A stretch of DNA of 64,000 bases from an uncultured Bacteroidota bacterium. GTDB lineage: Bacteria; Bacteroidota; Bacteroidia; Flavobacteriales_D; Sanyastnellaceae. Every line of letters begins with the position of its first letter. The first letter of the stretch is position 1. Below, in pieces: positions 3,943 to 61,991 of this stretch. The notes under the pieces were generated by a model. That model ran no database searches. It had not been told where the DNA came from and worked only from the letters and a program-made list of their open reading frames with translations. The position numbers were made by a program, and so were the translations under genes. The DNA lies in the NCBI GenBank assembly GCA_903932685.1, contig CAIZGX010000064.1, positions 62,001-126,000 of the forward strand. Reading direction: 5' to 3'.

Positions 3943-3943
3943 G

Positions 3944-3975
3944 AGAAGATAAGAAAGGGGAAGAGAGGGGAAGAA
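3944..3975 (+). repeat. polypurine tract module, shared with 61894-61932 and (reverse strand) 57212-57260
   Basis: AAGATAAGAAAGGGGAAGAGAGGGGAAGAAA versus AAGATAGGTTAAGAAAAGGGAAGAGAGGGGAAGA. Confidence 0.7.
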
Positions 3976-4050
3976 AGTTGCAACGCAACGAATGTCTACG
4001 ACGAATGTTTTCAACGAATGCCTTCGGCGGATATAGTCTGAACAGGTGTA
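3976..4050 (+). repeat. mini-hairpin array, CGAATG linker
   Basis: GTTGCAACGCAAC-GAATG-TCTACGA-CGAATG-TTTTCAA-CGAATG-CCTTCGG-CGGATA. Confidence 0.8.
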
Positions 4051-4075: not shown

Positions 4076-5293
4076 ATGTTAAAACGCAAAATGATCAATG
4101 ATCCGGTTTACGGATTTGTGACTATACGCCATGCGTTCGTTCTTGAATTAATTAATCACCGCTATTTCCAAAGACTCAGAAGAATTACCCAATTGGGTCT
4201 TTCGTCGTTGGTATATCCGGGTGCCGGACATAACCGCTTTCAGCACGCGATGGGCGCAATGCATTTGATGCAAAACGCCATTGATGAATTGCGATTGAAG
4301 GGACATGCTATTTCGCATGAAGAAGAAGTTGGATTGCTTTGCGCCATTCTCCTTCACGACATTGGACACGGTCCGTTCAGTCACGCGCTAGAAAGTTCCA
4401 TTGTGAACGAAGTTCACCACGAACATATTTCTTCTTTCGCCATGCAGCGCTTGAACCAAGAGTTCAAGGGTCAATTAGATCTTACGCTTGAAATCTTCAA
4501 TGGAACGTATCCACGAAAATTCATGCATCAATTGGTGAGCAGTCAGCTCGACATGGATCGTCTCGACTACTTGGCCCGAGATAGTTTTTTCAGCGGTGTT
4601 GTTGAAGGACAAGTGGGAAGCGAGCGATTGATTAAGATGCTCGATGTGGTGAATGATCAACTTGTGGTTGAAGAAAAAGGAATTTATTCCATTGAGAAAT
4701 TCATTGTCGCGCGAAGATTCATGTATTGGCAGGTTTACTTGCACAAGACCGTTTTAAGCGCAGAATACATGTTGGTGAATGTACTTCGTCGCGCAAAGCA
4801 GCTAGCGGACCAAGGCGAGCAGCTATGGGCCTCTCCGGCCTTGCAATACTTCTTGAACAATAAGATTTCTCTTTCTCATTTTGAAGGAAGCGACGAAGCG
4901 TTCGAGATGTTCATGAAGTTAGACGACATTGACATTCTTGGCGCCTTGAAAGTTTGGGCCTCACATTCCGATTTCGTGCTGAGTCAGTTAGCAACGCGCA
5001 TAGTCGAACGCAGACTTTTCAAGATTGAAATTTCCCGAACTGAAATCCCTGAAAGCAGCATTCAGCAAGCCATTCAGGATATTCAAAATCAGTATAGCAT
5101 CTCAACTGAAGAAGCTCGCTATTTCGTGTTGAACGGAAAAGTCGACAATCGCGCATACAACAGCATGAATGAAGGCATCTTGGTGAAGATGAAAAACGGT
5201 GACATCATAGACGCAGCGAAAGCCAGCGATCACGATAACCTTTCGGCATTGAGTGCTCCTGTTGAGAAGTACTTTTTGGCCAAGGCCAAATAA
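4076..5293 (+). CDS. HD-domain phosphohydrolase (dGTPase-like)
   Basis: MINDPVYGFV, HNRFQHAMGAMHLM, LLHDIGHGPFSHALE HD motif. Confidence 0.9.
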   Translation: MLKRKMINDPVYGFVTIRHAFVLELINHRYFQRLRRITQLGLSSLVYPGAGHNRFQHAMGAMHLMQNAIDELRLKGHAISHEEEVGLLCAILLHDIGHGPFSHALESSIVNEVHHEHISSFAMQRLNQEFKGQLDLTLEIFNGTYPRKFMHQLVSSQLDMDRLDYLARDSFFSGVVEGQVGSERLIKMLDVVNDQLVVEEKGIYSIEKFIVARRFMYWQVYLHKTVLSAEYMLVNVLRRAKQLADQGEQLWASPALQYFLNNKISLSHFEGSDEAFEMFMKLDDIDILGALKVWASHSDFVLSQLATRIVERRLFKIEISRTEIPESSIQQAIQDIQNQYSISTEEARYFVLNGKVDNRAYNSMNEGILVKMKNGDIIDAAKASDHDNLSALSAPVEKYFLAKAK

Positions 5294-5371
5294 TGCCACT
5301 TGGGCGAATGTGCAAGCACGAATGTTGCGAAGCAACGAATGTCTTCGACGAATGTTTTCCAAACTAATGTG
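5293..5371 (+). repeat. mini-hairpin array, CGAATG linker, starting at HD-gene stop codon
   Basis: TAATG-CCACTTGGG-CGAATG-TGCAAGCA-CGAATG-TTGCGAAGCAA-CGAATG-TCTTCGA-CGAATG. Confidence 0.85.
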
Positions 5372-5472
5372 CTAGCGCACGAGGGCCGATGGCGACAACT
5401 CGATCTTAACGGAAAATTCCTCGATGTGCTTTAAGAGATTCACGTTTTTAATGGTTCGGAAATTCAGAAAAT
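5372..5472 (-). pseudogene. 3' remnant of an MNT nucleotidyltransferase gene, homologous to the C-terminus of the 12030-12350 CDS
   Basis: Reverse strand encodes DFLNFRTIKNVNLLKHIEEFSVKIELSPSALVR*, cf. VDLVNFRTIKNENLLKHIEDFSVQIELSPSALVR*; no upstream remainder. Confidence 0.85.
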
Positions 5473-5514
5473 CTTCGATTTTATTCCTCCCGATAGCTAT
5501 CGGGATTCGTAATT
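5468..5514. repeat. palindromic element: AAAATC-TTC-GATTTT hairpin plus 18-bp palindrome TCCCGATAGCTATCGGGA (5488-5505)
   Basis: Second copy at 56571-56632 with covarying first hairpin. Confidence 0.85.
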
Positions 5515-5537
5515 CCTACAAAGTAATTGGAAATGCG

Positions 5538-5650
5538 TTGCTAAATCGTCGAAGACATTCGCCATCGGCATTCGTGCTTGCACATTCGTTGCTTGCAACA
5601 TTCGTCCGCAGGACATTCGTTGCTTCGCAACATTAGCCTCCGGCATTACT
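5538..5650 (-). repeat. mini-hairpin array (CATTCG on + strand), abutting stop of the 5646-8330 CDS
   Basis: GTCGAAGAC-ATTCG-CCATCGG-CATTCG-TGCTTGCA-CATTCG-TTGCTTGCAA-CATTCG-TCCGCAGGA-CATTCG-TTGCTTCGCAA-CATTAG-CCTCCGG-CATTA. Confidence 0.9.
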
Positions 5651-8330
5651 CTTTCACCAAACGCATTGTCTTCCCGGCCGCTCTTACCAAGTAAACCCCA
5701 GCGTTCCATTTAGCAACAGAGATTTCCATGCGGTCTGATTGGGCTTTGTCTTTGAATAATATTCTTCCAGTTAAGTCGTAAACTTCCACAGAGGTTCCTT
5801 TTTCCAAACCAACCAAATTCACGTTGTTTTTCGCTGGATTCGGATACAAGTTTATCTCTGTTTTAGTAGCCGGAGCCTCTTCCACCTGAACCCCACATGC
5901 CATGGTGTAGACAGGACTAGTCATTGCCGTTTGCATATTGTTGCCCATGTCGTGAACGTTGAATTGAACTTCTGTTCCGCAAGCATATGGACCTTTCAAT
6001 GTTTGTCCAGCTGCATTCATTACAGAAACTGGTTCGTTCAATGAAGAAACCACTCCGTAAGGACCACCTGTTCCCATTGACGAAAGATTCATTGAAACGA
6101 AGAACTGTTCATTCGCCGGGTCTTCCATTAATATCATACCCATGTTTGGAAGCTCAACATCATACACACATGAGCCATCGTCGAACTGTGCATCTCCGCC
6201 GTAGTTCAAGGCCATTGGATCTAAACATCCACCGCAGTAATACAAACAACTTCCAACATCACAAGTTGCTAAACTGTCGTAGTTACAAGCCATTGGATCT
6301 GTACATCCCACTATTTCATTCGCTCCTGACACGAATGCCTGTAAGTAACCGAAGTCGGCTAAATTACCATTTAGAACCACTTCACCTTGCGCATTGGTAA
6401 CTGTAACTGAAGAGTTATCGGGCATGAATGAATACAACACCAACTGATAACAATCTGCTGCATTCATGCAATAGCCTGTCGCGTATGGATATTCGTTAAA
6501 GGCACCTTCACCCGTATTCGGATTAAACGCGTAGAAAATAACTTGTCCGCCTGAAGTAACCGTGTTCCAGTTTTCAGCTGAACAACAAGTGCCGTTATCT
6601 ACGGTAGCATCTGCATTGTAATTCGGAGCGGTAGGATCGGTGCAACCTTGACAAGAATAATCGCATAAAGTGGCGTTTGTGCAAGTCGCATTCGGATTGT
6701 AATTACAAGCGAAGAGATCGGTGCAACCAACGACTTCATTCACTGAGAAGTATTCGTTTACATAGGGATTAACATTTCCAGTTGTTTGATAGAATACGCT
6801 TCCGTCTGGACCATAAATGGTTATTTGGAAAGGCTGAACCGTTAAGCTCCATGCGCTGAATGAAAAGCAGTCTTGCTCCATACAGAATCCCTGAAGCATA
6901 TTGTTGTATCCTCCTTGCTGAGTTAACCCGTCTGAAGAAGTAACATACCATTCCAACCAAGAAGAAGATTCAACGGTGTACCAATTGTTGAAGCAGCAAG
7001 TGCCATTGTCAACTGTTGCGTTTGAATCGTAGTTGTTTGCCGTTGGGTCTGTGCAGCCAAGGCATGAATAATCGCAGAATGCAAGTTCATTGCACGTTGC
7101 AAGTGGGTTGTAGTTGCATGCCGAAGGCTCTGTGCAACCGGGCACTACAACACCCCAAAGGAAGGTGTATGGAATTCCAGTTTCCATGGCATTTGTTGAA
7201 CCTTGTGAAACAATATAACCGGTAGAATCTGTAATTGTGATATACGTGGTCTCTCCATTTTGATTGAACGGATCGAAAGTAATCGGATAAGAATTCAAGG
7301 TGTAGCATCCGCTGCTTATGCACAGTGTGCTATCGTTCGGTGTTGTACCGTATTGGTAATATCCCAATGAACTCTGAATAGTCCATGTTGAAGGCACCGA
7401 TGTAGTAATGGTCGCCATGTCAGCGTAGCAGCACTTTGCGTTATCGGAAGTTGCATTGGGATCGTAGTTCGTTGCAAGCGGGTCTGTGCAGCCGCTGCAA
7501 GAAGCGTAATCACATGATCCGTCGTTACAAGTAGCTTCAGCATTGTAGTTACATGCATTTGGATCTACACACCCGTATACTGCGTTCAACGAAACCGTGG
7601 TATAGAGGTAGTTTGAATCTACTGCTCCAGTAATCCAAACAGAACCATCTTCAAGGGTTACAGTGAAATTCTGGTTTACAGAAGCTTCGTCCAAAGAATA
7701 AACTTGCAGCGCATAACAGCTGTTTCTCACGCAGAACTGGTTGTTCACGAGATTATCTCCGCCTGTCATATAATATTGCTCACTGTACAACCAAATTCCC
7801 GCTTGTCCTTGCTCTACGCTGAAGGTCGCCCAATGGTCTGTGCAACATGTATTGTTATCTACAGTTGCATTTGGATTGAAGTTGAATGCGTCTGGGTTGG
7901 TGCAACCTAGGCAAGAGTAGTCGCAAGAATTATAATCGATACAATTGGCATTCGCATTGAAATTGCACGCGTTTGGATCTGTACAACCGTCTGTCACGTT
8001 GTTTGAGATATATCCAATGAAATAGTATTGACTGCCTAAATTTTCAATGTTTAGTTGATTTCCCTGATTATCTTGAATGAAAAATTCAACGGGTTGAGGA
8101 ATACCCGCACCCTCTGATGCAATAACAATCTTAAAACATCCGTCTGGAATACAAAAGGCATTCCAACCTGGTCCAGCCCCTCCTGCTACTTCATAATTGA
8201 GGTTATTTTGCACCGAAAAATAACCTGGTTGCAAAAGCCCAATGGTATAGCAATTCTGATTTTGTGCAGAAACAGAAAAGGTCAAAGCACTAAGAAGAAG
8301 GAAGTATATTAGTTTTTTCATTGTTTGCAA
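5646..8330 (-). CDS. secreted repeat protein with T9SS C-terminal sorting domain
   Basis: Signal peptide; repeated GCTDPxACNYNxxATC...CDYSCxGCTDPxAxNYxxxATxDNGTCC modules; C-terminus INLYPNPAKNNVNLVGLEKGTSVEVYDLTGRILFK...LVRAAGKTMRLVKE. Confidence 0.88.
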   Translation of the reverse strand: MQTMKKLIYFLLLSALTFSVSAQNQNCYTIGLLQPGYFSVQNNLNYEVAGGAGPGWNAFCIPDGCFKIVIASEGAGIPQPVEFFIQDNQGNQLNIENLGSQYYFIGYISNNVTDGCTDPNACNFNANANCIDYNSCDYSCLGCTNPDAFNFNPNATVDNNTCCTDHWATFSVEQGQAGIWLYSEQYYMTGGDNLVNNQFCVRNSCYALQVYSLDEASVNQNFTVTLEDGSVWITGAVDSNYLYTTVSLNAVYGCVDPNACNYNAEATCNDGSCDYASCSGCTDPLATNYDPNATSDNAKCCYADMATITTSVPSTWTIQSSLGYYQYGTTPNDSTLCISSGCYTLNSYPITFDPFNQNGETTYITITDSTGYIVSQGSTNAMETGIPYTFLWGVVVPGCTEPSACNYNPLATCNELAFCDYSCLGCTDPTANNYDSNATVDNGTCCFNNWYTVESSSWLEWYVTSSDGLTQQGGYNNMLQGFCMEQDCFSFSAWSLTVQPFQITIYGPDGSVFYQTTGNVNPYVNEYFSVNEVVGCTDLFACNYNPNATCTNATLCDYSCQGCTDPTAPNYNADATVDNGTCCSAENWNTVTSGGQVIFYAFNPNTGEGAFNEYPYATGYCMNAADCYQLVLYSFMPDNSSVTVTNAQGEVVLNGNLADFGYLQAFVSGANEIVGCTDPMACNYDSLATCDVGSCLYYCGGCLDPMALNYGGDAQFDDGSCVYDVELPNMGMILMEDPANEQFFVSMNLSSMGTGGPYGVVSSLNEPVSVMNAAGQTLKGPYACGTEVQFNVHDMGNNMQTAMTSPVYTMACGVQVEEAPATKTEINLYPNPAKNNVNLVGLEKGTSVEVYDLTGRILFKDKAQSDRMEISVAKWNAGVYLVRAAGKTMRLVKE

Positions 8331-8428
8331 TTGGATGTCACAAGGTAAGACAACAAAAGGTAGAACAAAGTTCGCTGGGAGGCAAAATTTCTTTGAATAT
8401 TACGCGTCAACGCGCTAGAATAACTCGA

Positions 8429-8493
8429 ACTCTTAATCATTGTTGGCATGAGCTCACACTCATGCCTGTGCGTTTGTGTCGCCCCGAGGGGCT
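8429..8493. repeat. REP-like palindromic element at 3' end of RAYT gene
   Basis: CTCTTAATCA...GGCATGAG-ctcaca-CTCATGCC (8-bp perfect stem) then GTCGCCCC-GA-GGGGCT. Confidence 0.75.
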
Positions 8494-8918
8494 AATGAAT
8501 GATCATTTAGAAGTTTGTTTTCCTCTTCGAGATAAGAGTAGTAGGTGTGATGATTCTTTTGGTTTTTAATGTATTGAATGACACGTTTTCGGTCTTTGTA
8601 GTAAACGGAAAACACGGCATATCCGGGTTGCCAGGTGAAATCGGCTAGGGATTCGTGTTGCGATTTCATCCATCGCGAAGAGTTTGATTTGGCGGCTTCA
8701 GCGAGTTTCGCGGTTGTTAATGTGCGCGGTAATTCGCAAAGAATGTGCACGTGGTCGTAGTATCCGCCAATGGCGTAGACTTCCGATCCCTTGTTGTTAA
8801 AAACGCCAATGAGGTAGGCGTGCAAACCTTGTTCAACCTGAAGAAAAATTTTCGGTTCGCGGTATTTGGTTACGAATACGAAATGTAGAACGAGACGGCT
8901 AAGAGAAGATGGGTTCAT
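8460..8918 (-). CDS. REP-associated tyrosine transposase / IS200-like Y1 transposase (RAYT)
   Basis: LVLHFVFVTKYREPKIF, GGYYDHVHILCELPRTLT, WQPGYAVFSVYYKDRKRVIQYIKNQKNHH, YLEEENKLL; flanked by palindromic repeats. Confidence 0.88.
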   Translation of the reverse strand: MNPSSLSRLVLHFVFVTKYREPKIFLQVEQGLHAYLIGVFNNKGSEVYAIGGYYDHVHILCELPRTLTTAKLAEAAKSNSSRWMKSQHESLADFTWQPGYAVFSVYYKDRKRVIQYIKNQKNHHTYYSYLEEENKLLNDHSLAPRGDTNAQA

Positions 8919-8980
8919 TGCGCAAAAATGAAAGGCAATCTCTATTCGTTAAAGGAATGTTTATGGGAAGCTCATCCGCG

Positions 8981-9063
8981 AGCCCCTTGGGGCGACATTA
9001 CCCGCGTAGCAGGGCTGTTAGGCCCTGCGAAAGAGAGCGGTTTTCGCATAAATGCGCATAAGG
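8981..9063 (+). repeat. REP-like 83-bp repeat copy 1
   Basis: AGCCCCTTGGGGCGACATTACCCGCGTAGCAGGGCTGTTAGGCCCTGCG...GCATAAATGCGCATAAGG, identical to 12828-12910. Confidence 0.9.
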
Positions 9064-9145
9064 TTGAACCGTTGTTAACTCGCGAGGAGCGTTCGTTTGC
9101 TTGATCACTTTTTGCATTGGCGTCATCACGCAAAAACAATTCTGA

Positions 9146-9200
9146 CTCTTAATCACCATTTGCATGGTCTAACACCCATGCCTAGCCGTTTATGTCGCGC
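9146..9200 (+). repeat. second copy of the CTCTTAATCA...GCATGG...CCATGC...TGTCGC element
   Basis: Aligns with 8429-8480 in same orientation; GCATGG/CCATGC stem. Confidence 0.7.
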
Positions 9201-9220
9201 CGTCAATAGAAGTGACTGTT

Positions 9221-11957: not shown

Positions 11958-12052
11958 GGGGGGGGTGGCTTCGCGAGGGCAACTAACGTTGCGAGGGTGA
12001 ATACTTCACGAGGGTCTGCGACGAGGGTGCTATCGCACGAGGGCCGATGGCG
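11958..12052. repeat. mini-hairpin array, CGAGGG linker, overlapping last codons of MNT gene
   Basis: CGAGGG-CAACTAACGTTG-CGAGGG-TGAATACTTCA-CGAGGG-TCTGCGA-CGAGGG-TGCTATCGCA-CGAGGG-CCGATGG. Confidence 0.85.
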
Positions 12053-12350
12053 ATAGTTCTATCTGAACGGAAAAATCCTCGATGTGCTTCAGAAGATTTT
12101 CATTCTTTATGGTTCGGAAATTCACCAAATCCACCAATTGAGGAATATTTAAATCTTCCAATTCACCTGCAATAAAATTAAGATCGGAAAACGTTAGCTC
12201 CTCACCAAATAAACAAATGTCAATATCTGAACCCTCTCGGTAAGTGCCCATAGCGCGAGACCCGAAAATCTTTGCGGCTTGAACGCGCTCATTCGAATAG
12301 ACAACATTCGCTATTGCTCGAAGTGATTTCTGACTTAATCCCGTTTCCAT
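12030..12350 (-). CDS. MNT-type nucleotidyltransferase (HEPN/MNT module)
   Basis: IFGSRAMGTYREGSDIDICLFG = GSRAxGxxxxxSDIDI motif. Confidence 0.9.
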   Translation of the reverse strand: METGLSQKSLRAIANVVYSNERVQAAKIFGSRAMGTYREGSDIDICLFGEELTFSDLNFIAGELEDLNIPQLVDLVNFRTIKNENLLKHIEDFSVQIELSPSALVR

Positions 12351-12354
12351 TCCA

Positions 12355-12783
12355 CTAAATTAATTCATTCATGCGACCTTCCAATTGCTCGAATAAAACA
12401 GGATATTGACTGACTACTTTTTCAAAGACTTCTTCCAAGATTGATTCATCATACAAATGAGACGTTTGATTTCGAGTTGAAATTGTTTCTAACCACAACT
12501 CCCCATTTAAGATTAATTGATTCTGATAAGCCAAACGAAAAGCATCACGAGATCCTACAATTTCTTTAATTCCCTGATGCTTAAGATAATCTTGCAACAC
12601 CTTCCACGACATCTCTTGCGTAAACTCGAAGGCTTGAATTAGCCCTTGCTTCTCCAGCGATGAAAGTTCTCTCGATTTCGATAATTCCAATCCAGATAAA
12701 AATTGCTTCCGTGCATTTTTAAAATTCTCGAAACGCTGCTTCCAACGAATTTCATTTGTATTCATGATACGAAATTCATTCAA
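12355..12783 (-). CDS. HI0074-family HEPN protein (nucleotidyltransferase substrate-binding-like)
   Basis: RWKQRFENFKNARKQF, FEFTQEMSWKVLQDYLKHQG, STRNQTSHLYDES (RNxTSHxY); 4 bp from MNT. Confidence 0.9.
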   Translation of the reverse strand: MNEFRIMNTNEIRWKQRFENFKNARKQFLSGLELSKSRELSSLEKQGLIQAFEFTQEMSWKVLQDYLKHQGIKEIVGSRDAFRLAYQNQLILNGELWLETISTRNQTSHLYDESILEEVFEKVVSQYPVLFEQLEGRMNELI

Positions 12784-12827
12784 TTCACTTCCAAAAGCAA
12801 ATTTCTCCTATGCGCTAACCAACGCGG

Positions 12828-12910
12828 AGCCCCTTGGGGCGACATTACCCGCGTAGCAGGGCTGTTAGGCCCTGCGAAAGAGAGCGGTTTTCGCATAAAT
12901 GCGCATAAGG
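12828..12910 (+). repeat. REP-like 83-bp repeat copy 2
   Basis: Base-for-base identical to 8981-9063. Confidence 0.9.
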
Positions 12911-13065
12911 CAAGGGCGAATGCTTCGCGAAGGCAACATCGTTGCGAAGGTGCAAGCACGAGGGTCTTCGACGAGGGCAACTGGCGTTGCTTATCAATCA
13001 ACGTTCGCAGAACCCTCGCAAAGAATTTGCCTTCGTCTGAAAGACCCTCGCAACAGCAGTTGCTC
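12911..13065. repeat. mini-hairpin array with internal orientation switch (CGAGGG to CCCTCG)
   Basis: CAACATCGTTG-CGAAGG-TGCAAGCA-CGAGGG-TCTTCGA-CGAGGG-CAACTGGCGTTG ... CCCTCG-CAAAGAATTTG-CCTTCG-TCTGAAAGA-CCCTCG-CAACAGCAGTTG. Confidence 0.85.
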
Positions 13066-13093
13066 TTAGGCCCTGCGAAAGGGAGCGGTTTTC
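13066..13093 (+). repeat. partial third REP copy (28 bp, one mismatch)
   Basis: TTAGGCCCTGCGAAAGGGAGCGGTTTTC. Confidence 0.75.
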
Positions 13094-13751: not shown

Positions 13752-13786
13752 CATCCGCAACATTCGCCCTTCGGGCATTCTACTGC
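13752..13786 (-). repeat. short mini-hairpin array at stop of scoB
   Basis: Sense strand: TAG-AATG-CCCGAAGGG-CGAATG-TTGCGGATG. Confidence 0.65.
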
Positions 13787-14412
13787 GTAAGCAGTTTCCC
13801 CGCTGTCTTCGCCACCACCTCTTCCAACGTCACTTCCGGAGCCAATTCAACCAAATGAAACGCGCCGTCGCGGATGTCGAAGACACCCAAGTCGGTGACT
13901 ACTTTTTTAATGCAATGAATGCCCGTTAGAGGTAGAGAACACTGTGGCAATAACTTCGAGTTACCAGCCTTGTCGCAATGCTGCATGGCCACAATAATAT
14001 TCTTCGCACTGGCCACCAAATCCATGGCGCCGCCCATGCCTTTCACCATCTTACCCGGAACTTTCCAATTCGCAATGTCGCCATTCTCACTCACTTCCAT
14101 GGCACCCAAAATGGTAAGATCCACCTTCTGCGCTCTAATCATTCCGAAACTCATGGCACTGTCGAAAATGGAAGACCCGTCACGCAACGTCACCGTCTGC
14201 TTCCCTGCGTTAATCAAGTCTGCATCCTCTTCTCCTTCGAATGGAAAAGGTCCCATTCCTAAAATACCGTTCTCACTTTGCAATTCAACTTCCATTCCTT
14301 CCGGAATGTAATTCGCTACCAAAGTAGGAATGCCAATACCTAAATTGACATACGTTCCGTCTTGAACCTCTTGCGCAATGCGCTTCGCTATTCCAATTTT
14401 ATCCCAAGCCAT
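13780..14412 (-). CDS. scoB: 3-oxoacid CoA-transferase subunit B
   Basis: RIAQEVQDGTYVNLGIGIPTLVANYIP, LQSENGILGMGPFP, GGAMDLVASAKNIIVAM. Confidence 0.93.
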   Translation of the reverse strand: MAWDKIGIAKRIAQEVQDGTYVNLGIGIPTLVANYIPEGMEVELQSENGILGMGPFPFEGEEDADLINAGKQTVTLRDGSSIFDSAMSFGMIRAQKVDLTILGAMEVSENGDIANWKVPGKMVKGMGGAMDLVASAKNIIVAMQHCDKAGNSKLLPQCSLPLTGIHCIKKVVTDLGVFDIRDGAFHLVELAPEVTLEEVVAKTAGKLLTQ

Positions 14413-36484: not shown

Positions 36485-36553
36485 TCCTTCGGATCAATCG
36501 AAACAAGTTTCGATCAATCTCTTCGAGATCAATCCGACTTTGTCGGATCAAAG
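36485..36553. repeat. mini-hairpin array with TCAA linker between convergent genes
   Basis: TCCTTCGGA-TCAA-TCGAAACAAGTTTCGA-TCAA-TCTCTTCGAGA-TCAA-TCCGACTTTGTCGGA-TCAAAG. Confidence 0.9.
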
Positions 36554-38284
36554 TTTCACTATTTGTTTTCTAAGAGTGCGATCTCCCGTTTGTAATTCAA
36601 GAAGATAATTTCCTGAAGACAAATTGGAAAGATCAAGCACAGCGTTTCCATTCGCTACGCGCTCTGAAAGAACCAGTCTTCCGGAAAGATCGCGAATGGA
36701 AAGGTTTGCACTTTCATTCGTGTTTTTCCATTGAACGTTCAACACATCGGTAACCGGATTCGGATAAATGTTCAGTTGGTCTTCCAATGCCATTTCTTCC
36801 ACCCCAACATTCACGGTTATAATATCCGATGTTAGGACGCAACCGTAACTATTAGTAACCTGCACGGCATAAACTCCGTTTGGTGGGCTAATCAAATAAT
36901 AGGTAATTGCACCTTGTAAAAGCATTCCGTTATAGAACCACTGATAGGTGTCGTAACTATCCGCAACTGACAATTGATCGGCAGCAGCATTCCAAAACAC
37001 CTCTATGGGTGCGCAGTACAAGTATGGTTCACTTGTAGAAGAGCATCCGAATTCGTTTTGCAAATACACCGAATAATAACCGGATTCAGTCATGGTTAAA
37101 CTTGAACCCGATTCCCCTGCTATTAATATGCCGTTGTAATACCAGAAATAGGTCGGCACGGTGTCGTTCGCGCAAGAGATGACATCGCCGCTCACACTAA
37201 CCGTTGCATCGGGTTGAGGGAAGACACTGACTGCAGTAGATGCTGAAATATTCGTCACTTCGTTCAATGAGATGTTAATGGTTCCTGAAGTTCCGTTACC
37301 AGAACTGAACGACTGAGAACCCACACCAATGTTGAAAGAAGATGTTCCCAAATTATCGTCCTGCGAGATATCATCCGAATCCCAAAAAGTAATCGTGTAA
37401 GGAGGATTCGAAAGCGTAAAATTCACATTCGAGTATGAAGCACTTGTTTGATTATTTACTGTCCCGCTCGTGTAAACAGCACTTCCAGCAGCATTGTTAA
37501 TGGTGAAATAAGGATCCGCTGTATTGAATAAATCATCAACATCGCCATTCCAGTTTCCATTCACTCCGGCAAGGTTTACAGAGGTAATTACATAATTTGA
37601 AATAACGGTTTGAAGGGAAGCCGTATAAGTTCCCGGCGCACCATAATTAACTGGTGCAGGATCTGCAACATTTCCCGTTTGTCCGTTACCAAAATCCCAT
37701 ATGTAAGTGGTCATTTGCGAAGCATCGCCACCAATGGTTGCAACATAATCTACATCAATGGCACCGCATCCGGCAGATTGGTCGAATGTAAAAGTTGAAG
37801 TTCCTCCAGGACCTTGTTCAACAATTAACGTAATTATAAAACTATCATTTTGAGTGACCTCAAATCCAAAAGCTTCGGCGAGTGCTGTAATACTAATCAC
37901 GATGTCGTATGTTCCGGGCAATACTGGGGTTCCGCATATGGTTGCACAACCGGAATTTTCTCCTTGAGGCGGATAAAAAATTCCATCGGCATCGTTCAAT
38001 GTAAATTCCAATCCAAAAGGTAATCCTGAAACATCGGTAATCGTCAACTGAAGCAACGTTGCATTCACACCTGAGCCAGGATCTGTAACATCCGTTGGAA
38101 TAAAGAACGTCATGACCTGCTCGTAATAAACACCTGTGGTGGCGTTCGGCGGAATAGCCGGACAAATCATGGGTGTGCCCGTGGTGTTTGTGCATGTGGG
38201 GTCTGGAGCGCACGTCGGACATTGTGCGTGTGTGGAAATAATTCCAACAAAGAACAAAGCTAAAACGAAGTAGATATTTTTCAT
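36548..38284 (-). CDS. secreted PKD/Ig-like protein with T9SS sorting domain
   Basis: Signal peptide; TYIWDFGNGQTGNVADPAPVNYGAPGTY; LNIYPNPVTDVLNVQWKNT...LRKQIVKL. Confidence 0.88.
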   Translation of the reverse strand: MKNIYFVLALFFVGIISTHAQCPTCAPDPTCTNTTGTPMICPAIPPNATTGVYYEQVMTFFIPTDVTDPGSGVNATLLQLTITDVSGLPFGLEFTLNDADGIFYPPQGENSGCATICGTPVLPGTYDIVISITALAEAFGFEVTQNDSFIITLIVEQGPGGTSTFTFDQSAGCGAIDVDYVATIGGDASQMTTYIWDFGNGQTGNVADPAPVNYGAPGTYTASLQTVISNYVITSVNLAGVNGNWNGDVDDLFNTADPYFTINNAAGSAVYTSGTVNNQTSASYSNVNFTLSNPPYTITFWDSDDISQDDNLGTSSFNIGVGSQSFSSGNGTSGTINISLNEVTNISASTAVSVFPQPDATVSVSGDVISCANDTVPTYFWYYNGILIAGESGSSLTMTESGYYSVYLQNEFGCSSTSEPYLYCAPIEVFWNAAADQLSVADSYDTYQWFYNGMLLQGAITYYLISPPNGVYAVQVTNSYGCVLTSDIITVNVGVEEMALEDQLNIYPNPVTDVLNVQWKNTNESANLSIRDLSGRLVLSERVANGNAVLDLSNLSSGNYLLELQTGDRTLRKQIVKL

Positions 38285-54812: not shown

Positions 54813-55718
54813 ATGCACCCAAGAAATCAACACAAAGAAAACTACAACTTCCCAGAACTCATTCAAGCCGTTCCAGAGTTAGGGGCGTTTGTGAAAATGA
54901 ATGCTTACGGAAATGAGAGCATCGATTTCTTCAATGCGGAAGCGGTGAAGCTGCTGAATAAAGCGCTGCTGAAAAGCAACTACGGCATTGCGCATTGGGA
55001 CATTCCTGCGAATTATTTGTGTCCTCCCATTCCGGGAAGAGCAGAATACATGCACCAAGTAGCCGATCTGTTATACAAGAACAACCCGGAATATCTTCAA
55101 GATAAAAAATTGGGAAACAACATTCGTGTGCTCGATGTAGGCGTGGGCGCGAACTGCATCTACCCCATTGTTGGCGCGCACGATTACAACTGGAATTTTG
55201 TTGGAACCGACATCGATGAAAAAGCCATTGCCGCTTCACAAAAAATTGTAAACGAGAACGATTCACTTCAAAATAAAATTGAATTGCGTCATCAAAAAAA
55301 TCCGCACGACATCTTTCACGGAATTATTCTTCCAATTGAAAAATTCCACCTCACGGTTTGCAATCCGCCATTCCATGCGTCGCTTCAAGAAGCGCAACAA
55401 GGGAATCTTCGCAAAAACAGAAACCTGAAAAACACGCGCAACACCAAAGTGCAATTGAATTTCGGCGGACACGGAACCGAGCTCTGGTGCGAAGGCGGAG
55501 AAGAAACCTTCATTGAAAAAATGATACTTCAAAGCGCTGTTTACTCGAATCAAGTCTTGTGGTTCAGCACGCTCGTTTCAAAAGAAAGCACTCTCAAAAA
55601 AATTCAACTCAAACTCGAATACGTCGACGCTCGAGAAATGAAAATCCTTCCCATGCAACTCGGAAATAAGGTGAGTCGAATTGTTTGTTGGTCTTTTCAG
55701 AAGGAACTACGTTGTTAG
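54813..55718 (+). CDS. rlmF: 23S rRNA (adenine(1618)-N6)-methyltransferase
   Basis: MHPRNQHKENYNFPELIQAVPEL, VLDVGVGANCIYPIVG, LTVCNPPFH. Confidence 0.92.
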   Translation: MHPRNQHKENYNFPELIQAVPELGAFVKMNAYGNESIDFFNAEAVKLLNKALLKSNYGIAHWDIPANYLCPPIPGRAEYMHQVADLLYKNNPEYLQDKKLGNNIRVLDVGVGANCIYPIVGAHDYNWNFVGTDIDEKAIAASQKIVNENDSLQNKIELRHQKNPHDIFHGIILPIEKFHLTVCNPPFHASLQEAQQGNLRKNRNLKNTRNTKVQLNFGGHGTELWCEGGEETFIEKMILQSAVYSNQVLWFSTLVSKESTLKKIQLKLEYVDAREMKILPMQLGNKVSRIVCWSFQKELRC

Positions 55719-55758
55719 AACTGCGTTGTGGGAACTTCGTTGTGGGAACTTCGTTGTT
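55703..55758 (+). repeat. four 14-bp tandem units GGAACTWCGTTGTK, overlapping last codons of rlmF
   Basis: GGAACTACGTTGTT AGAACTGCGTTGTG GGAACTTCGTTGTG GGAACTTCGTTGTT. Confidence 0.9.
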
Positions 55759-55761
55759 AAA

Positions 55762-55872
55762 TCGTCGAAGACCCTCGTTGCTTGCAACCTTCGTCCGTAG
55801 GACCTTCGCAAAGCTATTTGCCCTCGTCCGAAGGACCCTAGTGAAGAATTCACCCTCGCAAAGCTATTTGCC
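55762..55872 (-). repeat. mini-hairpin array, CCCTCG/CCTTCG (+ strand) linker
   Basis: GTCGAAGAC-CCTCG-TTGCTTGCAA-CCTTCG-TCCGTAGGA-CCTTCG-CAAAGCTATTTG-CCCTCG-TCCGAAGGA-CCCTAG-TGAAGAATTCA-CCCTCG-CAAAGCTATTTG-CC. Confidence 0.92.
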
Positions 55873-56637: not shown

Positions 56638-56700
56638 CAGTCGAAGACATTCGCACGAAGTGCATTCGTTCAGAGAACATTCGTCGAAGACATTCTAACT
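56638..56700 (-). repeat. mini-hairpin array at stop of DUF1456 gene
   Basis: GTCGAAGAC-ATTCG-CACGAAGTG-CATTCG-TTCAGAGAA-CATTCG-TCGAAGA-CATTCTAA. Confidence 0.8.
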
Positions 56701-57211: not shown

Positions 57212-57260
57212 ATTCCCCTCTCTTACCCTCTCTTAACTTCTCTTCCCCTCTCTTAACTTT
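57212..57260 (-). repeat. polypurine (minus strand) tract module
   Basis: TTCCCCTCTCTTACCCTCTCTTAACTTCTCTTCCCCTCTCTTAAC. Confidence 0.75.
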
Positions 57261-61824: not shown

Positions 61825-61893
61825 GCCCTGCGGGCGAATGTTGCGAAGCAACGAATGTGCAAGCACGAATGCCTTCGGCGAATGTCTTTTTAA
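61825..61893 (+). repeat. mini-hairpin array, CGAATG linker, directly after glyS stop
   Basis: GCCCTGCGGGC-GAATG-TTGCGAAGCAA-CGAATG-TGCAAGCA-CGAATG-CCTTCGG-CGAATG. Confidence 0.88.
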
Positions 61894-61932
61894 AAGGTAA
61901 GATAGGTTAAGAAAAGGGAAGAGAGGGGAAGA
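61894..61932 (+). repeat. polypurine tract module
   Basis: AAGGTAAGATAGGTTAAGAAAAGGGAAGAGAGGGGAAGA. Confidence 0.75.
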
Positions 61933-61935
61933 TAT

Positions 61936-61991
61936 AACAACGTAGTTCCAACAACGAAGTTCTAACAACGAAGTTACAACAACGTAGTTCC
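61936..61991 (-). repeat. four 14-bp tandem units AACAACGWAGTTNN, overlapping ddl 3' end
   Basis: AACAACGTAGTTCC AACAACGAAGTTCT AACAACGAAGTTAC AACAACGTAGTTCC; reverse complement of the 55703-55758 repeat. Confidence 0.9.

Follow-up and report, generated by a model that had tools for sequence, protein, structure and literature searches.

Strings of very small hairpins held on fixed four-letter linkers occupy the gaps just 3' of genes in one uncultured genus of Flavobacteriales. They are best explained, with a probability of about 0.45, as recently expanded DNA repeats of the REP/BIME kind that fill these gaps as far as the last codon that can be dispensed with. The window, i.e. the whole 64,000-nt stretch analysed, and further samples of the same genome (G000) were compared with eight other genomes of the genus (G001 to G008).

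Architecture and abundance of the arrays

The repeated unit consists of a constant linker and a micro-hairpin of about 7-16 nt, in tandem. At least four linker dialects of 4 nt occur in G000 (GAAT, GAGG/GAAG, TCAA and ATGA), and the outer pair of the hairpin goes with the dialect, being G..C for GAAT and GAGG, T..A for TCAA and C..G for ATGA; the rest of the stem varies. Chains of at least four hairpins on a constant 4-nt linker number 57 in 759 kb of G000 versus 0.0 in shuffles, and the pattern CGAATGN{5,20}CGAATG is matched 158 times genome-wide, against 6 matches for the reversed pattern. These array statistics rest on samples, 759 kb for G000 and at least 400 kb for other species; as a second set of G000 stretches was picked for bearing arrays, densities are not to be read as estimates. 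Gene calling relied on a simple hexamer-based program made for the purpose, so that starts are approximate and a few small genes may be missed or spurious. The longest array seen carries 18 hairpins on the ATGA linker (L078:19252-19501). Pairs of arrays facing each other on opposite strands of one gap were also observed, as TCAA/TTGA and ATGA/TCAT, at L034:17048-17221 and G001:C16:7488-7762.

As in REP/BIME repeats, each linker-hairpin unit joins a constant tag to one end of a short palindrome, and the arrays lie mostly between genes, near their 3' ends. On the contrary, the sequence of the palindrome is not conserved within an array family, 138 distinct hairpins being found among 301 GAAT segments. 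Long stretches shared between loci are few, a scarcity which speaks against the arrays being block copies of one another.

Arrays and gene ends in the window

Table 1. Arrays, associated genes and related repeats in the window
Feature	Position	Strand	Remarks
Purine repeats of 10 nt (3943-3976), then 4-hairpin GAAT array, 3' of RNase E/G gene	3943..4028	+	array begins 34 nt downstream of the gene, after the purine tract (3977)
HD-domain gene (PF01966, PF19276)	4076..5293	+	last two codons (AK) in right arm of first hairpin
GAAT array 3' of HD gene	5275..5393	+	TAA stop (5291-5293) inside first linker
7-hairpin GAAT array, sense to convergent 5646 CDS	5548..5644	-	linker TAAT at stop
5646 CDS, Por secretion tail (PF18962)	5646..8321	-	stop at 5646-5648
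Y1 transposase (Y1_Tnp, PF01797)	8460..8918	-	no array beside it
GAGG-linker array	11979..12051	+	convergent nucleotidyltransferase gene (12030-12350, -) has its TAG stop inside hairpin GTGCTATCGCAC
GAAG/GAGG array (12916-12990, +) and opposite-strand CCTC array (13003-13063)	12916..13063		no sense stop anchor
scoB end: ACTGC-TTAC-GCAGT hairpin, then AAT, GCCCGAAGGGC, GAAT	13762..13795	-	
TCAA-linker array, 5 hairpins	36485..36560	+	6 nt 3' of a stop
Repeats of 14 nt of the AACTTCGTT type (55704-55757), and minus-strand GAGG/GAAG array (55764-55871)	55704..55871		
4-hairpin GAAT array 3' of DUF1456 gene	56640..56691	-	TAG stop at 56695-56697
GAAT array immediately 3' of glyS TGA	61825..61890	+	followed by purine tract, then AACNNNGTT repeats ending near 61991

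Five junctions between stop and array had been quoted in a preliminary description of this DNA, and all of them are present as quoted: AAA-TAA-T-GCCACTTGGGC-GAAT at the HD gene, GAG-TAA-T-GCCGGAGGC-TAAT at the 5646 CDS, CAG-TAG-AAT-GCCCGAAGGGC at scoB, AGT-TAG-AAT-GTCTTCGAC at the DUF1456 gene and TGA-GCCCTGCGGGC-GAAT at glyS. The HD array reads, in order, TTTGGCCAAGGCCAAA-TAAT-GCCACTTGGGC-GAAT-GTGCAAGCAC-GAAT-GTTGCGAAGCAAC-GAAT-GTCTTCGAC-GAAT-GTTTTCCAAAC-TAAT-GTGCTAGCGCAC-GAGG-GCCGATGGC. Here the end of the coding sequence itself forms the first hairpin (TTTGGCCAAGGCCAAA, 5275-5290, TTTGGCC-AA-GGCCAAA), and the stop is in the linker that follows; in G002, the end of this gene reads TGGCGAAG-ATG-CTTCGCCA. 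The first hairpin at scoB (13782-13795, coordinates derived by hand) takes in the final codons together with the first letter (T) of the TAG stop. None of the GAGG/GAAG arrays at 11979, 12916, 13003 and 55764 is stop-anchored in sense orientation. An Rfam search of the window at the gathering threshold returned tRNAs only, and no array matched a known family.

Other elements accompany the arrays. The AACNNNGTT repeats, with 5-nt linkers, lie at 55704-55757 and 61936-61991 and are frequently distal to an array of the GAAT or GAGG dialect. The nucleotidyltransferase gene (Polbeta, PF18765) stands beside an NTase_sub_bind/HepT-like gene (12030-12783, minus strand), both embedded in GAGG arrays and likely forming a HEPN-MNT toxin-antitoxin pair. 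A piece 84% identical to the 3' region of the nucleotidyltransferase (12027-12131) recurs at 5369-5473, 3' of the HD array, which is also where the end of that gene lies in G001, G004 and G006.

Position relative to stop codons

Stop anchoring of GAAT arrays is strong, although not universal. When each array was slid uniformly within its own gap, 1.8 of the 23 GAAT arrays of G000 whose nearest 5' neighbour is a sense stop were expected to start between -20 and +4 nt from that stop, and 12 did so (Monte Carlo p 5e-5). The corresponding figures in G000 are 5 of 12 for TCAA (expected 1.1, p 3e-4), 1 of 5 for ATGA and 0 of 4 for GAGG, which thus shows no stop anchoring. For all dialects of G000 together, 15 of 19 arrays in tandem gaps are nearer the stop than the next start, and 18 of 24 in convergent gaps are nearer the stop of the gene to which they are sense. 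Some arrays sit in divergent gaps. In the pooled multi-species sample, whose position counts include orthologous arrays, 7 of the 56 GAAT arrays lie next to an antisense start on their 5' side; the more reliable figures are those of G000 alone. The refuting conditions named in the preliminary description, uniform distances or frequent arrays in promoters or within genes, were not borne out, distances peaking at the stops themselves and 1 of the 32 GAAT arrays in the G000 samples lying inside a called ORF.

Nonetheless, the preliminary claim that arrays start exactly at stop codons and are fused to them holds as regards proximity and is overstated as regards exactness. GAAT arrays start from -19 to +61 nt relative to the stop, and other dialects are looser; about half of the GAAT arrays begin 8-61 nt downstream, many after a purine tract. 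The stop often falls within the first unit, which may reach into the last codons, and the arrays frequently provide the stop together with the last 1-3 residues of the protein. That the stop replaces part of a linker (TAAT/TGAT, TAG-AAT) is correct for the HD gene and the 5646 CDS (TAA-T) and for scoB and the DUF1456 gene (TAG-AAT), being however one case among several, as stops are also placed in a hairpin loop (GTTGGC-TAA-GCCAAC at L096:8836; GTCC-TAAA-GGAC at L037) or arm (TCACC..GGTGA, TCACCTTCGGTGA, at the end of L094_5). Insertion targeted to stop codons is not supported in the form originally proposed, given this spread of offsets, the looser dialects and the reversed linker, CCTC, at the scoB ortholog of G002.

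Many arrays without stop contact come after a 10-nt purine repeat, which itself often comes after a stop. This purine-rich tandem repeat (GGTAAGAGAG/GTTAAGAAAA/GGGGAAG) is found in the window at 3943-3976, 57216-57259 and 61892-61932, often between stop and hairpin array.

Turnover between species and C-terminal change

Across seven congeneric species the dialect at one and the same stop may differ, and a basal relative may have no array there. Orthologous gene ends L094_10 and L071_7, with proteins 96% identical, carry GAAT and TCAA arrays, respectively. At glyS the dialect is GAAT in G000, G005 and G006, GAGG in G001 and G002, and TCAA in G004, with nothing in G007, and the TCAA locus of the window has GAAT arrays in its G004 and G005 orthologs. 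The RNase E/G gene has the purine tract and array directly after its TAA in G000 and G006, and the TAA followed by a short gap in G004, reflecting either gain or precise loss.

Protein ends change as well. ScoB finishes in LLTQ in GAAT-bearing species and in LVV in others. Over the last four residues, identity is 0.56 in the 13 pairs in which only one ortholog was found to carry a stop-abutting array, versus 0.85 in the 160 pairs in which neither has one; the pairs are not independent, and the detector missed a short array in some pairs of the first class (e.g., scoB of G000).

GAAT pairs number 158, 107, 138, 119 and 199 in G000, G001, G003, G004 and G006, respectively, and are near background in G007 and G008. 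GAGG counts are 93 in G002, 73 in G005, 16 in G008 and none in G007, and ATGA counts 204 in G004, 135 in G000 and 2 in G007. G007 is thus essentially array-free, and its lower protein identity (92% for glyS, 67% for DUF1456) suggests a basal position. Beyond the genus, no array was found beside glyS among 80 genomes of other Bacteroidota (the best glyS match, of 77%, being to an uncultured Flavobacteriales), and none that was convincing in 17 sampled stretches from other genera of the family; in genomes beyond the genus, ATCAAT pair counts mostly reflect the background of coding sequence.

Stem pairing and a possible role in RNA

In 109 comparisons of orthologous hairpins, divergence was 0.155 per site in loops, 0.016 per nt in stems and 0.046 in linkers, these last having been filtered for at most one difference. 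Single mismatches in 623 segments of the four dialects include 14 sense G-U pairs versus 26 C-A mismatches, short stems weakening this test. Pairing is kept, yet not as would be expected if sense RNA alone mattered. Consequently, of the selection for stop-proximal RNA hairpins initially suggested, selection for pairing stands, stems being ~10x less variable than loops, and the RNA-specific part is left unsupported, sense G-U pairs being no more numerous than C-A mismatches.

The main rival to a DNA repeat is nonetheless selection for the arrays as hairpins of the 3'-UTR RNA, which would protect mRNA ends or help termination, their place at the stop following from an action on the transcript; we consider this rather unlikely. 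It would account for the sense orientation, stop proximity and avoidance of starts, for the low divergence of stems, and for polar arrays that finish in GTC-TNC-GAC followed by T-rich sequence, with GTCTTCGAC as conserved terminal hairpin. Triloops are also strand-asymmetric, 66 distinct hairpins having TTC or TGC versus 20 with GAA or GCA (related hairpins among them not being independent), a bias compatible as well with a DNA repeat or with a strand-specific enzyme. The HD array folds as RNA with a z-score of -2.7, but as a single strand it favours long-range pairs over separate hairpins. Besides the G-U count, the transcript-level role is opposed by the scan of 4800-6200, around the HD array, which detected no intrinsic terminator, by an array in L095 lying downstream of a canonical U-tract terminator already available, and by GAGG arrays having no stop anchor.

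Candidate enzymes and copying mechanisms

The only Y1 transposase found is of IS200 type, scoring 73.8 bits with the NCBIfam IS200 model (cut-off 55) and 21.7 with REP_Tyr, under its cut-off of 80. Y1_Tnp is present in the GAAT-rich genomes G000, G001, G004 and G006 and absent from G007 and G008. It was also not found in the array-rich G003 (GAAT), G002 and G005 (both GAGG), drafts in which absence is weak evidence. No dedicated RAYT with its own flanking repeats was found, only IS200-like Y1, whose absence from G003 may be an assembly gap. Repeats belonging to this IS200-like element (GAGCCCCTTGGGGCGACATTACCCGCGTAGCAGGGCTGTTAGGCCCTGC..; AGCCCC..GGGGCGACA) lie at 8404-8486, 8980-9063, 9120-9202, 12827-12910 and 13062-13093, and related copies adjoin or lie within arrays in G001, G004 and G006.

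A strand-specific HUH (Y1-type) nuclease or transposase that places units at gene ends by recognising the tag and its hairpin would agree with the layout of the unit, the strand asymmetry and the four GAAT-rich genomes with Y1_Tnp, together with its absence from G007 and G008. Hairpins beside short target tags are typical of the IS200/IS605 group. This enzyme is nevertheless improbable, considering the array-rich genomes in which it was not found, the variable stop offsets, and a Y1 gene in the window that is IS200-like, with repeats of its own that differ in sequence, and no adjacent array.

Template switching in replication, a known process (PMC8794818), might make and repair the hairpins, the first by fold-back copying of the coding end, with arrays otherwise neutral. 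In the first hairpins of the HD gene (G000, G002) and scoB (G000, G002, G005, G007) the left arm is native coding sequence and the right arm its reverse complement, and wobble pairs are nearly absent. On the contrary, orthologous hairpins show 4 compensatory double changes versus 14 single breaks, no loop inversion was noticed among the listed differences, and fixed 4-nt linkers and dialects are left unexplained. Stems of 3-5 bp are also short for such switching. This origin is improbable. Finally, an origin by reverse transcription, prompted by the polypurine tract before some arrays, was rejected, as RVT_1 was found in 0 of the 9 genomes of the genus.

Proposed REP/BIME-like repeats at gene ends

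A REP/BIME-like unit, tag tetranucleotide (GAAT, GAGG, TCAA or ATGA) and then micro-hairpin, in tandem, would thus have expanded recently within one genus, with fast turnover. Arrays would persist in the non-promoter gap 3' of genes because 93-96% of the DNA is coding, growing or being replaced as far as the last codon that is dispensable to the protein; the boundary would hence often be at the stop. They would spread as DNA elements, with a boundary set by tolerance and not by a stop-specific enzyme.

This REP-like reading is consistent with the stop enrichment and stop-side bias in tandem gaps, with orthologous stops bearing different dialects or none (L094_10/L071_7, glyS, window_31), with the reduced C-terminal identity, and with arrays being essentially lacking in G007 and not found in the other genera sampled. 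The G-U count, the array beyond a terminator and those in divergent gaps point in the same direction. Against it stand stems without the sequence conservation of REP families and the missing RAYT, with IS200-type Y1 likewise not found in three array-rich genomes. Moreover, tolerance alone does not readily account for first hairpins that pair with native coding DNA, and the conserved terminal hairpin and the T-rich sequence after it hint at a role in the transcript.

GTAG- and CGTC-tagged REP/BIME repeats share with the arrays a tetranucleotide tag and palindrome, high copy number, clustering, and location for the most part between genes that converge or run in the same direction, near ORF 3' ends, where the tag provides TAG stops (PMC3733652); stop proximity alone is therefore not new. 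The unusual parts are freely varying stems in hairpins of about 7-16 nt on a constant linker, several dialects per genome in arrays of up to 18 units, and replacement of one dialect by another at one stop. The literature searched holds no description of these arrays, nor of variable stems and competing dialects. Mitochondrial repetitive hairpin-forming elements are likewise intergenic and optional, with conserved stems and variable loops, but their stems are long, they lack fixed 4-nt linkers, and the excerpted account describes no stop anchoring (PMC2800124). The TAACTGA repeats of Beggiatoaceae, as excerpted, are also short and intergenic with many sets, but are direct repeats of one heptamer without variable hairpins (PMC4679880). 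CRISPR arrays, with constant repeats, unique spacers and cas genes, differ from a layout of constant 4-nt linkers and self-complementary variable parts.

It is possible, if doubtful, that the arrays form a separate class of bacterial repeat with the 4-nt linker as its sole fixed part. Stems would arise anew yet be kept perfectly paired, and the repeats would spread behind genes, supplying stops, rewriting C-termini and, from one close species to another, displacing a competing dialect at a given stop. The same gene end with a different dialect or none, in proteins often 96-99% identical, provides a natural series for testing RNA selection against DNA spread, and for studying how repeats rewrite gene ends and C-termini.
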